Assembly (NCBI GenBank): GCA_001796515.1
Contig: MGMS01000005.1
Span: 1 to 61,061, forward strand
Length of the DNA: 61,061 nucleotides
Source: Chloroflexi bacterium RBG_13_51_36
GTDB taxonomy: Bacteria > Chloroflexota > Dehalococcoidia > GIF9 > AB-539-J10
Direction: 5' to 3'
In this document: positions 22,399 through 26,076 of the stretch, piece by piece
Layout: each line of letters starts with the position of its first letter
Numbering within the stretch: position 1 is the stretch's first letter
The notes under the pieces: generated by a model
The model's input: the letters and a program-made list of their open reading frames with translations, nothing else
What the model was told of the DNA's origin: nothing
The model's database searches: none
Position numbers and translations under genes: made by a program

Positions 22399-23328
22399 TT
22401 ACCGGCCTATATCTACCTTGAGACCATAAGACTCAACCAGCTTCTTGAATCTCCCCATCTGCTCATCGCTGATCAAGGCAACATCTTGATACGGGTATAC
22501 TCTCCCCTTTGCGGCATATTTCAACTCCCCATACTTATGGTAAGGTAGCAGGGAGATCTTCTCGACTGGCCGATCAAGGGTAAGGACAAATTTGCATAGC
22601 TTCTCCAGGTCCTCCTCAGAGTCGTTGAAACTAGGGATTACCGGGCGTCGAATCCACACCTTGGCCTTGGATTTGGCCAAGATCTTTTGCAGATTATCCA
22701 GTATCCGTTCATTGGATACCCCGGTGGCTTCTTGGTGTTTTTCCGAGTCCATGTGCTTGACATCGTAGAGCACCAGGTCAGTGTAGTTCAGTACCTCATC
22801 CAGTATTTCCCACTCGGCATACCCAGCAGTATCCAGAGCGGTGTGAAACCCTTGCCTCTTAGCTTCCCGGAGTAATCCCAAAGCGAACTGCCACTGCAGC
22901 AACGGTTCACCCCCGGAGAGAGTCATGCCGCCATTAGTGCGCCGATAATAGTTGCAGTCTCTCCCCACCGTGTCTATAACTTCAGCAATAGTCATATGCT
23001 CCCCCGCAGCCTCTATCGCCTTGGAGGGACAAACTTGAGCACACTTCATACAGTAGTTACATCTCTCCCAATCAATGATCCTGGTTTTCTCCACGAAAGT
23101 AATCGCCCGCTCCGGGCATATTTCAGCACACTTGCCAGAGCCGATGCACTTGATGTCCCTGGTGATTATCTCAGGGGATAATCTCATCGACTCTGGATTG
23201 CTACACCACAAGCATCGCAGAGGGCATCCCTTCAAAAATACCGTAGTTCTTATCCCCGGCCCGTCCTGAATGGAAAAGCGCTGGATGTTGAATACAATGC
23301 CCTCGCCTGCAGCGATATCATTCTCCAT
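22399..23328 (-). CDS. Glycyl-radical-enzyme activase (radical SAM)
   Basis: Generates the glycyl radical on the adjacent enzyme using SAM. 309 residues. The radical SAM cluster CPLRCLWC (Cys35, Cys39, Cys42) is followed by a ferredoxin-like insert. One site is complete, CNYCMKCAQVCP (Cys90, 93, 96, 100). The other reads CIGSGKCAEICP (Cys61, Ser64, Cys67, Cys71) with serine where a cysteine is expected, so that cluster may be altered or absent. MTLSGGEPLLQW is the SAM-binding GGE motif. It lies 204 bases downstream of its substrate enzyme on the same strand. Confidence 0.93.
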   Translation of the reverse strand: MENDIAAGEGIVFNIQRFSIQDGPGIRTTVFLKGCPLRCLWCSNPESMRLSPEIITRDIKCIGSGKCAEICPERAITFVEKTRIIDWERCNYCMKCAQVCPSKAIEAAGEHMTIAEVIDTVGRDCNYYRRTNGGMTLSGGEPLLQWQFALGLLREAKRQGFHTALDTAGYAEWEILDEVLNYTDLVLYDVKHMDSEKHQEATGVSNERILDNLQKILAKSKAKVWIRRPVIPSFNDSEEDLEKLCKFVLTLDRPVEKISLLPYHKYGELKYAAKGRVYPYQDVALISDEQMGRFKKLVESYGLKVDIGR

Positions 23329-23532: not shown

Positions 23533-26076
23533 CTATAGGCTGTGCTCTGTTCTGGCGATGATGCTGTCCTGAGTATCTTTGGGCAGGTCGATCCAGAAGG
23601 CACTGTACCCGGCGACCCTTACCTGAAGGTCGGTGTAGTTTTCTGGATGCTTCTGGGCATCCCTCAGAACACCACTGTCTACCATATTGAACTGGATGTG
23701 TGGAATAGTCCCTTTCTCGTACCACTCCCTAAGGTATTGGGCAAACAGCGCCCTGTTCTCTCCTTCCAGAAATACCGGCATAAACCTCTGATTAAAGAGC
23801 TCGGTATGCATGAAGGGTATCTTGGCCGCTGAATTAAGAGTTGCTGTTGGGCCCTTCTTATCTGCACCAGCCATAGGCGAACGACTGCCGTCGGTTAAGT
23901 GGCTCATAGCCCGCCTTCCATCGGGAGTAGCTCCACAGGCCAAACCCGTCGTCTGGTACCCCGCTGCTGTACCTCCATCACTGATGAAGGTGAAACCCCA
24001 GGCATCCCTGACCTGACTGATTGTCTCCTCAAATCTTGTAGATACTTTCACAGCCCATGCATCAGCATAGTCATCGTCATTGCCATATTTGGGGGCATTA
24101 AGGCAATCCTGGCGCATCTCCTCATATTCCTCCCAGTTTGCCCTCAGTGCCTTAAGTAGCTCCTCCATAGTATATTTTCTCTCATCGAAGACCAGCTTCT
24201 GAACCGCTATTAGAGAGTCAACCACGGTTATCATTCCCAGAGGGTATATAGACGGATAGGTATCGTACTCTTTATGTATTTTCTTCAGGTCAATTCCTCT
24301 CTCAAGAGGCTCATCCTTAAGCAAAGAATTGCATGGATCTGGATTAGTATTCATAAGCATATCGTGGGCCAGATTCCAGGAAATATTCATTTGCTTAACA
24401 TAAAACAACACACGCTCGCAGAAAGCATCCAGCAACTCATCCGCAGATGCCATCTCTCCGGGGTCTTTTGTCTCAGGTTTGTCTGGTCTGGCCGCCGTCC
24501 TACTAATGCCACCCTCGAACAGAGTTTCCTCCAGCACCCTGGGGAGGATCATACCGCCGGCTCCCGCCGCGCCTGTTGAAACCATATACCTGCCGGTGAC
24601 GCTATTGGTAACACAGCCACCCACCTGCGTCCTCTTAGCATCCTCAGGGGAATAGCCTCTCATCAGCGCCCATCTCTCAAGCAAATCTTCGTTGAACCAC
24701 GAAGGATGCCCCGTGCCAGCGCGCAATAGGTCGATTGCTCGTTCCACAACCTTGGGCGAGATATTACGGTGGTAAAGAACTGCAATAGGCGGCTGGTTAA
24801 TGTGGAGATTGCTCATAGCCTCGAGAATCAGGCAGCTTAGGTCGTTGGACGCATCCCTGCCGTCTCTGGTACTTCCGCAAATATTGAGAGTGTAGAATGT
24901 CTCACCGCCAGCCTTTCCGGTAAAGGTCACGGGCCACTCCAAAGCAATGCCCACATCTTGGATCTTGATGAAGAGACACTCCAGAAGCTCCAGTGCCTTT
25001 TCCCGGGTGATCCGCCCTGCTTTCATATCAGCTTCATAATAGGGCCACCATATCCGGTCAACTCTGTAACCACCGCCATTACCATTTACTGCCAGGAAAT
25101 GTGCTGCTACTTCAATAATCCAAAAAAACTGAAGAGCTTCGTGGAAGCTTCGTGCAGGATTGGCTGGCACCCACTCCAAAACGTCAGCCATCTCCTCCAA
25201 CTCCTTCCTGCGGACCCTGTCCTTCTCCGCCTTAGCCTGTTCCCTAGCCAATCCAGCATATCTCTGGCTAAAGCGTATTATGCCCCTGCCGCACATCGCC
25301 ATCGCCTCCCAGTTATTCTTCTTCTCAATATACTCAGCCGGGTTCATCTCCAAGACTTTGCGGTCCAAATCCTTTAACTTGGCCTCGGCTCGCTCAATCC
25401 TTGACTTGAGCCCTTCCTTGAAAAGCGTAGCGTAGTCATAACTTAAGTTGACTATGCCCATCTCCCAGAGTTTCGCCTCGATTGGCGTAGCCAGCCCCGC
25501 CAGCACATCTGGAACCACGTCTCTGGGCAGCATTGCCTTTATTCGGTCTGCTATACACTTACCTTTCCAAAACTCACAGATATCCTCGACTATTTCCTTT
25601 CTCTCGTCATCAGTCACCATCTCCGAGAATCCGCCGCTGGTGACGGCTTCAGACATATGTTGCATGGCAATCTCGGGATACCATCTCAATTCGTCTGGAG
25701 CACTATTGGGATCCCCTACAATGAGCTCACCAGGCTTGATGAAGATGGGAAACTTTTCGCACAGGTTGACGAAAACCTTCGCCACTCGCGTGACCCACGG
25801 CTGTCCATCGGTTTCCCTGTGGGATTCGGTTACTAGCCTTGCCCTGTCTAAGTCAACCTTGATATTCTCTCCCTGACGAAAGGTGCACTTTGCTAACCCA
25901 ATAGCGATGTTAATGAAGTCTTTTACTACTGCTGCCTTCCATTTCAAACCTTCCCTCAGTTTGGCAGTACGAGGCGTGGAACCAAATCCCCACTCGTAGG
26001 GCGGCCTCCTTTTTGTCCTGTCCTCAAATGACAGATTGCCGGGCTCCGGTATTTTCTGCCCTGCTACTTGCCTCAT
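23533..26076 (-). CDS. Glycyl radical enzyme (PFL-like), substrate unassigned
   Basis: 847 residues, the usual length. The C-terminal radical loop RVAGYSAFW places the glycyl radical at Gly823. The active-site cysteine is Cys488 in QVGGCVTNSVTG. Eliminases and decarboxylases of this family (choline, glycerol, hydroxyproline, isethionate, hydroxyphenylacetate types) have GCVE, with the glutamate acting as acid/base; here the residues are Thr and Asn. This excludes the well-known eliminases and leaves an X-succinate-synthase-like or novel chemistry open. The activase gene follows. No microcompartment genes or small subunits are nearby. Confidence 0.92.
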   Translation of the reverse strand: MRQVAGQKIPEPGNLSFEDRTKRRPPYEWGFGSTPRTAKLREGLKWKAAVVKDFINIAIGLAKCTFRQGENIKVDLDRARLVTESHRETDGQPWVTRVAKVFVNLCEKFPIFIKPGELIVGDPNSAPDELRWYPEIAMQHMSEAVTSGGFSEMVTDDERKEIVEDICEFWKGKCIADRIKAMLPRDVVPDVLAGLATPIEAKLWEMGIVNLSYDYATLFKEGLKSRIERAEAKLKDLDRKVLEMNPAEYIEKKNNWEAMAMCGRGIIRFSQRYAGLAREQAKAEKDRVRRKELEEMADVLEWVPANPARSFHEALQFFWIIEVAAHFLAVNGNGGGYRVDRIWWPYYEADMKAGRITREKALELLECLFIKIQDVGIALEWPVTFTGKAGGETFYTLNICGSTRDGRDASNDLSCLILEAMSNLHINQPPIAVLYHRNISPKVVERAIDLLRAGTGHPSWFNEDLLERWALMRGYSPEDAKRTQVGGCVTNSVTGRYMVSTGAAGAGGMILPRVLEETLFEGGISRTAARPDKPETKDPGEMASADELLDAFCERVLFYVKQMNISWNLAHDMLMNTNPDPCNSLLKDEPLERGIDLKKIHKEYDTYPSIYPLGMITVVDSLIAVQKLVFDERKYTMEELLKALRANWEEYEEMRQDCLNAPKYGNDDDYADAWAVKVSTRFEETISQVRDAWGFTFISDGGTAAGYQTTGLACGATPDGRRAMSHLTDGSRSPMAGADKKGPTATLNSAAKIPFMHTELFNQRFMPVFLEGENRALFAQYLREWYEKGTIPHIQFNMVDSGVLRDAQKHPENYTDLQVRVAGYSAFWIDLPKDTQDSIIARTEHSL

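Follow-up and report, generated by a model that had tools for sequence, protein, structure and literature searches.

A glycyl radical enzyme subfamily that lacks both the eliminase glutamate and the fumarate-binding arginine

Introduction

Few reactions of glycyl radical enzymes (GREs) are known, and so far each new subfamily has tended to have its own chemistry. The window analyzed here, a stretch of 61,061 nucleotides from the genome of Chloroflexi bacterium RBG_13_51_36, encodes a GRE that carries the sequence GGCVTN at its active-site cysteine, and the question is what kind of reaction such an enzyme might catalyze. An earlier note, made from the sequence alone, pointed out that the glutamate two residues after the cysteine (Cys+2) is missing, and it regarded this glutamate as the mark of dehydratases, lyases and arylacetate decarboxylases. 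Together with the lack of microcompartment and small-subunit genes, this was taken to indicate an unassigned reaction, possibly the activation of an aromatic or alkyl substrate.

The enzyme, its activase and their surroundings

The protein matches the Pfam families PF02901 (PFL-like, 507 bits) and PF01228 (Gly_radical, 81 bits). It has the radical glycine in an RVxGY motif, the catalytic cysteine and a cognate activase, and it is a genuine GRE, an oxygen-sensitive radical enzyme, from an uncharacterized subfamily of this known enzyme class. The AlphaFold2 model (pLDDT 82.6, pTM 0.86) matches PFL2-type GRE structures with Z values of 34-41. The activase, which the earlier note does not mention, contains the CxxxCxxC motif and ferredoxin-like auxiliary cluster motifs, in which one cysteine is replaced by serine (CIGSGKC), and the reading frames of both genes are open. 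The serine lies in the first auxiliary cluster motif; the activases of G1193 and G1170 have serine at the same position, and those of L033, L034 and L038 have cysteine there.

Table 1. Coordinates of the features (positions without a locus prefix are those of the window)
Feature	Position	Strand	Remarks
GRE gene	23533..26076	-	ATG start, 847 aa, stop within coordinates
GRE activase (radical-SAM)	22399..23328	-	309 aa; next gene, same strand; TIGR02494 366 bits, cut-off 174
Active-site Cys loop, residues 486-491 (GGCVTN)	24604..24621	-	Cys488 codon 24613-24615; aligned with the catalytic Cys in 80/80 GRE rows
Radical glycine Gly823 (RVAGYSA)	23608..23610	-	Invariant in 80/80 rows; within the PF01228 match
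Asp700	23977..23979	-	Candidate active-site acid; two residues before the BSS Gln707 column in the alignment
Split GRE	L089:12274-14850	+	
Split GRE	L076:1328-3904	-	
Split GRE	L077:69-2645	+	
Split GRE	L088:6743-9320	-	
Inverted repeat and T-rich run	L089:13839-13903	+	Between the split halves
Inverted repeat and T-rich run	L088:7690-7754	-	Between the split halves
ChlI-like AAA ATPase and VWA protein	L033:3834-7218	+	Adjoin clade GRE
ChlI-like AAA ATPase and VWA protein	L089:9122-11812	-	Adjoin clade GRE (G1163)
Clade GRE with in-frame stops	L090:1345-3936	-	G1051
Ring-2 GRE neighborhood	L099:868-11499		Acyl-CoA dehydrogenases, carboxyltransferase
Ring-2 GRE neighborhood	L089:897-8570		Acyl-CoA dehydrogenases, carboxyltransferase
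Clade loci from the contig scan			L032, Asgard archaeon; L033, Deltaproteobacterium; L034, L035 and L036, Chloroflexi; L037, Proteobacterium; L038, Lokiarchaeote
Further clade members			G075 (Syntrophaceae), G1163, G1193, G1170, G1051

According to hmmscan, the neighbors on the activase side are an MFS transporter (1.1 kb past the activase), an FG-GAP fragment, an M48 peptidase and a MarR protein, and a DUF72 protein lies on the other side; all are unrelated to the GRE. DnaE2, ImuB and LexA, located past DUF72, were read from the sequences and are not hmmscan matches. The earlier statement on accessory genes stands for microcompartments, because the genome from which the window comes has no shell domain PF00936 (0 of 1; a control search was positive in 2 of 14 genomes). 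As to a small subunit, no Pfam-recognized one is present among the adjacent proteins scanned, but short open stretches, none of them assigned, flank the gene and may encode a tiny subunit. The neighbors scanned include no aldehyde-, amine- or sulfite-handling genes. CoA-transferase and dehydrogenase genes, which had been proposed as partners in relatives, do not recur consistently: L034 has a CoA-transferase III nearby, and the Pfam scan of the neighbors found neither type directly adjoining the window GRE.

Distribution and origin

The GRE belongs to a clade of 13 genes in 12 genomes, the window included, from Asgard archaea, Chloroflexi, Proteobacteria and Desulfobacterota. Most members share 51-70% identity with the window protein. 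Of 23 loci recovered by scanning genome contigs, seven carry this protein, with best-segment identities of 55-70%. Profile searches with a threshold of E <= 1e-170 matched a single genome of 400 in the window's phylum, which is the window's own, 8 of 227 in the Asgard phylum, 18 of 395 in the phylum of G061 and 1 of 400 in that of G062. Two of the Asgard genomes and five from the phylum of G061 contain the window clade; the other six Asgard matches (663-673 bits) belong to a second uncharacterized group, called 'ring 2' (L003-L009, L068-L073, L080-L084, L087 and others). The best non-self match among 60 genomes, the window's own included, was 40% identical. All plasmid matches found by tblastn were below 60% identity (34% for the best-ranked) and were kept as references. 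The member from G1051 is interrupted by two in-frame stops within the last third of the protein, and is either a decayed gene or an assembly error.

In the clade gene neighborhoods examined, the activase alone recurs with any regularity. In two loci the GRE adjoins genes for a ChlI-like AAA ATPase and a VWA protein (Table 1). The AAA protein was sought in 20 chosen genomes and a close copy (at least 64%) was found in three, G061, G1163 and G1170, all of them clade-bearing; it is missing from the eight other clade-bearing genomes of this set, one of which is the window's own. A further protein that recurs near the clade GRE, in L033, L076, L088, L089 and L090, has about 200 residues, contains Cys and has no Pfam match.

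In its own assembly (1.93 Mb, 91% complete) the window GRE is the sole match to PF01228. DnaE2 adjoins DUF72 in five of seven congener loci at 72-82% identity, and the DUF72-DnaE2(-ImuB-LexA) block is native to the genus. None of the seven contains the GRE; in four of them, enough of the GRE-side sequence is available to tell. Since the neighboring block is native and the GRE is missing from the congener loci, the GRE and its activase look like a horizontally acquired pair within a resident contig, whose composition is normal (GC content of 0.509 for the gene and 0.510 for the window). The absence from those four loci, and from the other genomes among the 400 drawn from the phylum, would also be expected of a decaying or misassembled gene without function in its host. 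This is highly improbable, however, given the open frame, the retention of all radical residues, the intact adjacent activase, the matching GC content and the native DUF72-DnaE2-ImuB-LexA side.

Active-site residues

Cys488, in the context AKRTQVGG-CVTNSVTGR, aligns with the catalytic cysteine of all other GREs examined, and the Val-Thr-Asn reported after it is confirmed in the open reading frame. The residue survey covered 80 aligned GRE rows, of which 45 are on the side of the X-succinate synthases (XSS, the benzylsuccinate and alkylsuccinate synthases) and 35 on the side of the eliminases. Position Cys+2 is Thr490 in the window GRE. The 12 aligned clade rows have Ala (six), Thr (four) or Asn (two) at this position and never Glu, so Thr490 is no sequencing slip. 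Glu or Asp is found at Cys+2 in none of the 45 XSS-side rows compared to 33 of the 35 eliminase-side rows, the exceptions being L111 (Val) and the arylacetate decarboxylase of Olsenella scatoligenes, 7E7L (Leu). The loss of the glutamate is therefore not private to the window clade but common to all XSS-side rows of this alignment. L111, a choline-lyase-side GRE from a plasmid of Peptoclostridium acidaminophilum, has the loop GCVVPHFRK: the eliminases, too, include a loss of the glutamate.

The glutamate is not a defining mark of arylacetate decarboxylases, since of the four such enzymes known two are without it: 7E7L and the phenylacetate decarboxylase, which has Gln at Cys+2 according to an excerpt of PMC9248008. 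Because the XSS enzymes and these two decarboxylases also lack the glutamate, its absence combined with that of a small subunit does not by itself signify an unassigned reaction.

A second position separates the window clade from XSS. In a direct count over 79 rows (without 7E7L), Arg occurs at Cys+15 in all seven XSS rows, in none of the 12 window-clade rows and nowhere else; the window GRE has Ala503 there. An excerpt of PMC12358834 describes this arginine, Arg508 in benzylsuccinate synthase (BSS) and Arg492 in MASS, as binding fumarate. The column of BSS Gln707 and MASS Glu690 contains Gln or Glu in XSS, Ser or Gly in the window clade and Ser or Thr in ring 2. With Thr490 in place of Glu and no arginine at Cys+15, the enzyme is neither a Glu-dependent eliminase nor, by the arginine test, a fumarate adder.

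At position 700, all 12 window-clade rows and all 25 ring-2 rows have Asp, L079 has Asn, and none of the seven XSS rows has Asp. In the 35 other rows, the six commonest residues, which account for 34 rows, do not include Asp. Strand periodicity with Gln707, Val709 and Leu711 suggests that Asp700 faces the pocket, where it could serve as a base. E380, P382, F385 and W469, like D700, are invariant in the 12 clade rows, and these four are markers of the window clade: E380 and F385 are each present in only 1 of 25 ring-2 rows, and W469 is not among the residues listed for that group. The E380-x-P-x-x-F385 loop lies within residues 378-393, a low-confidence region of the AlphaFold2 model.

Position among glycyl radical enzymes

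A careful tree was calculated from 46 rows; 34 of the 80 were left out, which shortened the calculation and removed long branches. The window clade has a support of 100/100 and is united with XSS (BSS, MasD orthologs and kin), a 13-row ring-2 group and L079 at 100/99, whereas the eliminases and 7E7L are on the opposite side. The XSS rows form a clade of their own (100/100), with the window clade outside it. A quick tree of 79 rows, without 7E7L, has the same two sides, of 45 and 34 rows. Either XSS or ring 2 may be the nearer sister of the window clade (93/88 in the careful tree). This position beside the hydrocarbon-activating XSS is in line with the suggested activation of an aromatic or alkyl substrate. 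The window clade, with its scattered occurrence in Asgard archaea, Chloroflexi and relatives of sulfate reducers, is kin to the enzymes of oxygen-independent attack on toluene and alkanes, and it offers a good comparative handle.

A true fumarate-adding XSS with an altered fumarate site is quite improbable. It would share the tree side, and forcing the window clade and XSS into one clade is not rejected (p-AU 0.253). Furthermore, the N-terminal extension is common to both: in phmmer, the window protein aligns from residue 33 onward with BSS from residue 42, whereas the other full-length GRE matches begin at 68-76. These points are opposed by the loss of the fumarate-binding arginine, by the Gly or Ser in the Gln707/Glu690 column and by the lack of small subunits among the adjacent proteins scanned. 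Filing the gene as an XSS was rejected because this arginine is missing.

Comparisons of whole chains rank the known enzymes differently. Among solved GREs, choline lyase scores 357 bits per domain, XSS 322-328 bits and 7E7L 309 bits over its full length. Profile searches give 494 for HypD, 488 for MasD, 479 for CutC and 475 for BSS, and structure comparison gives Z values of 41.1 for propanediol dehydratase, 40.5 for MasD and 37.5 for BSS. Neither these scores nor the fold comparison, which fails to tell GRE subfamilies apart, favors XSS in particular; all that follows from them is the distance of the protein from every solved GRE. That the top overall scores and Z values go to choline lyase and diol dehydratase could be read in favor of an eliminase, a dehydratase or lyase in which the invariant Asp700 replaces the Cys+2 glutamate as the base. 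Such an enzyme is distinctly unlikely, since the tree separates the clade from the eliminases at 100/99, Asp700 is on a segment other than the Cys loop and the window neighbors scanned contain no genes for the handling of aldehydes, amines or sulfite.

None of the curated NCBIfam equivalogs for GREs is reached (bits/cut-off: HpsG 450/1000, HypD 433/1100, CutC 427/1050, HpfG 400/1000, IAD 389/1100, HPAD 320/1150). To this extent the idea of an unassigned reaction is sustained, as no characterized subfamily carries the gene. An identity as HPAD or IAD decarboxylase was rejected on the scores and on Thr490 in place of the glutamate.

The Cys loop on its own has a different nearest relative. A 96-residue fragment around it matches 7E7L best (51.7 bits, the next match 28.2), whose loop is GGCVLHQVPGK, and this likeness is a serious reason not to read too much into the tree. 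It raises the possibility of a radical decarboxylase that abstracts hydrogen beside a carboxylate, loses CO2 and returns the hydrogen, a reaction that requires neither the glutamate nor a small subunit. An excerpt of PMC9248008 describes the Olsenella enzyme as lacking auxiliary subunits and the active-site residues of HPAD, and the MFS transporter past the window activase would suit a decarboxylase as well. Nevertheless, this alternative is unlikely: grouping the window clade with 7E7L is rejected (p-AU 0.001), although the 7E7L branch is long (1.54), the full-length score is below that of choline lyase, and no MFS-type transporter gene was seen by eye beside the clade GREs whose neighbors were read. 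Filing the gene as an arylacetate decarboxylase on the fragment match was dismissed by the same tree test. A 70-residue fragment of such a decarboxylase, used as a query against 291 genomes of one class, gave best rows of 41-52% identity, none of which was kept as an arylacetate decarboxylase.

A two-gene form

Four Desulfobacterota genomes (G1163, G1193, G1170 and G075) have the window ortholog split into two open reading frames, and in each of the four these have exactly 522 and 317 codons. The catalytic cysteine is on the 522-residue part and the radical glycine on the 317-residue part. The start of the second half was taken as the ATG after the ribosome site; a strong GAAAGGAGG site lies a few bases upstream of this ATG in all four. 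The split point corresponds approximately to window residues 522-530, over a loop (524-526) modeled at pLDDT <50. In G075 the two halves are in different frames. Between G1163 and G1193, changes at codon positions 1/2/3 number 69/35/214 in the first half and 38/27/150 in the second, a pattern that looks like purifying selection on both halves. The three split rows in the careful tree form one clade, and G1170 and G1193 are near copies, so the split traces to a single event kept through divergence. No whole-length clade copy was reported in G1163, G1170 or G1193, for which at most two candidates were scored per genome.

Between the halves, an inverted repeat of 10 bp with a T-rich run after it was noticed by eye; the arrangement is perfect in G1163 and nearly so in G075. 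It is terminator-like and might tune the ratio of the two.

To our knowledge, the split lineage would be the first case of a GRE built from two genes. Open-licence papers yielded no description of a two-gene GRE or of the window clade. The two-part arrangement already known is that of GrcA, which serves pyruvate formate-lyase as a spare radical domain, as described in an excerpt of PMC12338860.

Proposed reaction

The reading that we put forward, as possible if short of probable, is XSS-like C-H activation by a thiyl radical, with C-C chemistry on a partner other than fumarate. The activase would install the radical on Gly823, from where it would pass to Cys488. The Cys488 thiyl radical would then abstract hydrogen from an unreactive C-H bond of a substrate that is probably largely non-polar. 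C-C bond chemistry is proposed because there is no glutamate to deprotonate the alcohol or amine of a leaving group: the substrate radical would form or cleave a C-C bond, with addition to an unsaturated, presumably non-fumarate partner as the likeliest course. Asp700 and the clade-specific E380-x-P-x-x-F385 loop would be among the groups that hold this partner. Finally, the radical of the product would retake a hydrogen atom from Cys488. What the sequences themselves show of this scheme is the intact Cys488 and Gly823, the adjacent activase, the clade-wide loss of the glutamate, the loss of the fumarate arginine and the gain of Asp700.

Taken as a whole, the picture would be that of a subfamily with a reaction new to GREs, C-H activation followed by radical addition to a non-fumarate acceptor, that was transferred among Asgard archaea, Chloroflexi and Desulfobacterota and has one lineage in which the thiyl cysteine (522-residue protein) and the glycyl radical (317-residue protein) are on separate polypeptides. 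We consider this full picture possible, but somewhat doubtful.

Comparison with known enzymes

The GRE eliminases (CutC, GDH, HypD, HpsG, IslA) carry the Cys+2 glutamate and occupy the other side of the tree, although choline TMA-lyase, diol/glycerol dehydratase and hydroxyproline dehydratase resemble the window GRE in fold, overall length and full-length scores. The Olsenella decarboxylase has the Glu-less GGCV loop of the window GRE and no small subunit, none having been recognized beside the window GRE either, but differs from it in tree position and has a low full-length score.

Ring 2 is like the window clade in having neither Glu nor Asp at Cys+2 and in sharing the DG motif that contains Asp700, but is only 36-40% identical to it in the members directly compared. 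Some ring-2 GREs adjoin acyl-CoA dehydrogenases or a carboxyltransferase, and the neighborhood in L099 contains genes that by eye resemble 2-hydroxyacyl-CoA dehydratase/benzoyl-CoA reductase and its activator. The ring-2 GREs L003-L007 have RVAGFAA for RVAGYSA in the radical loop and NNCMVP at the cysteine.

The XSS are without the glutamate as well, with CMSP or CLSP around Cys+2. The BSS alpha subunit (4PKC) and MasD (9O8U) are 26-29% identical to the window GRE in structure alignments; it differs from both in lacking the Cys+15 arginine and the Gln707/Glu690 residue. XSS enzymes need small subunits, whereas no beta, gamma or delta subunits were detected for the window GRE. The arginine is a simple check for readings such as that of the Hermodarchaeota GREs, for which an excerpt of PMC8163825 bases an assignment to the alkyl/benzylsuccinate synthases on one cysteine and an identity of 29-33%. 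Placed between the eliminases and the hydrocarbon-activating XSS, the window clade and ring 2 have kept the radical machinery and exchanged both known substrate-handling groups, the Cys+2 glutamate and the Cys+15 arginine, for an invariant aspartate, which makes them well suited to testing how the activation of C-H bonds by radicals was redirected.
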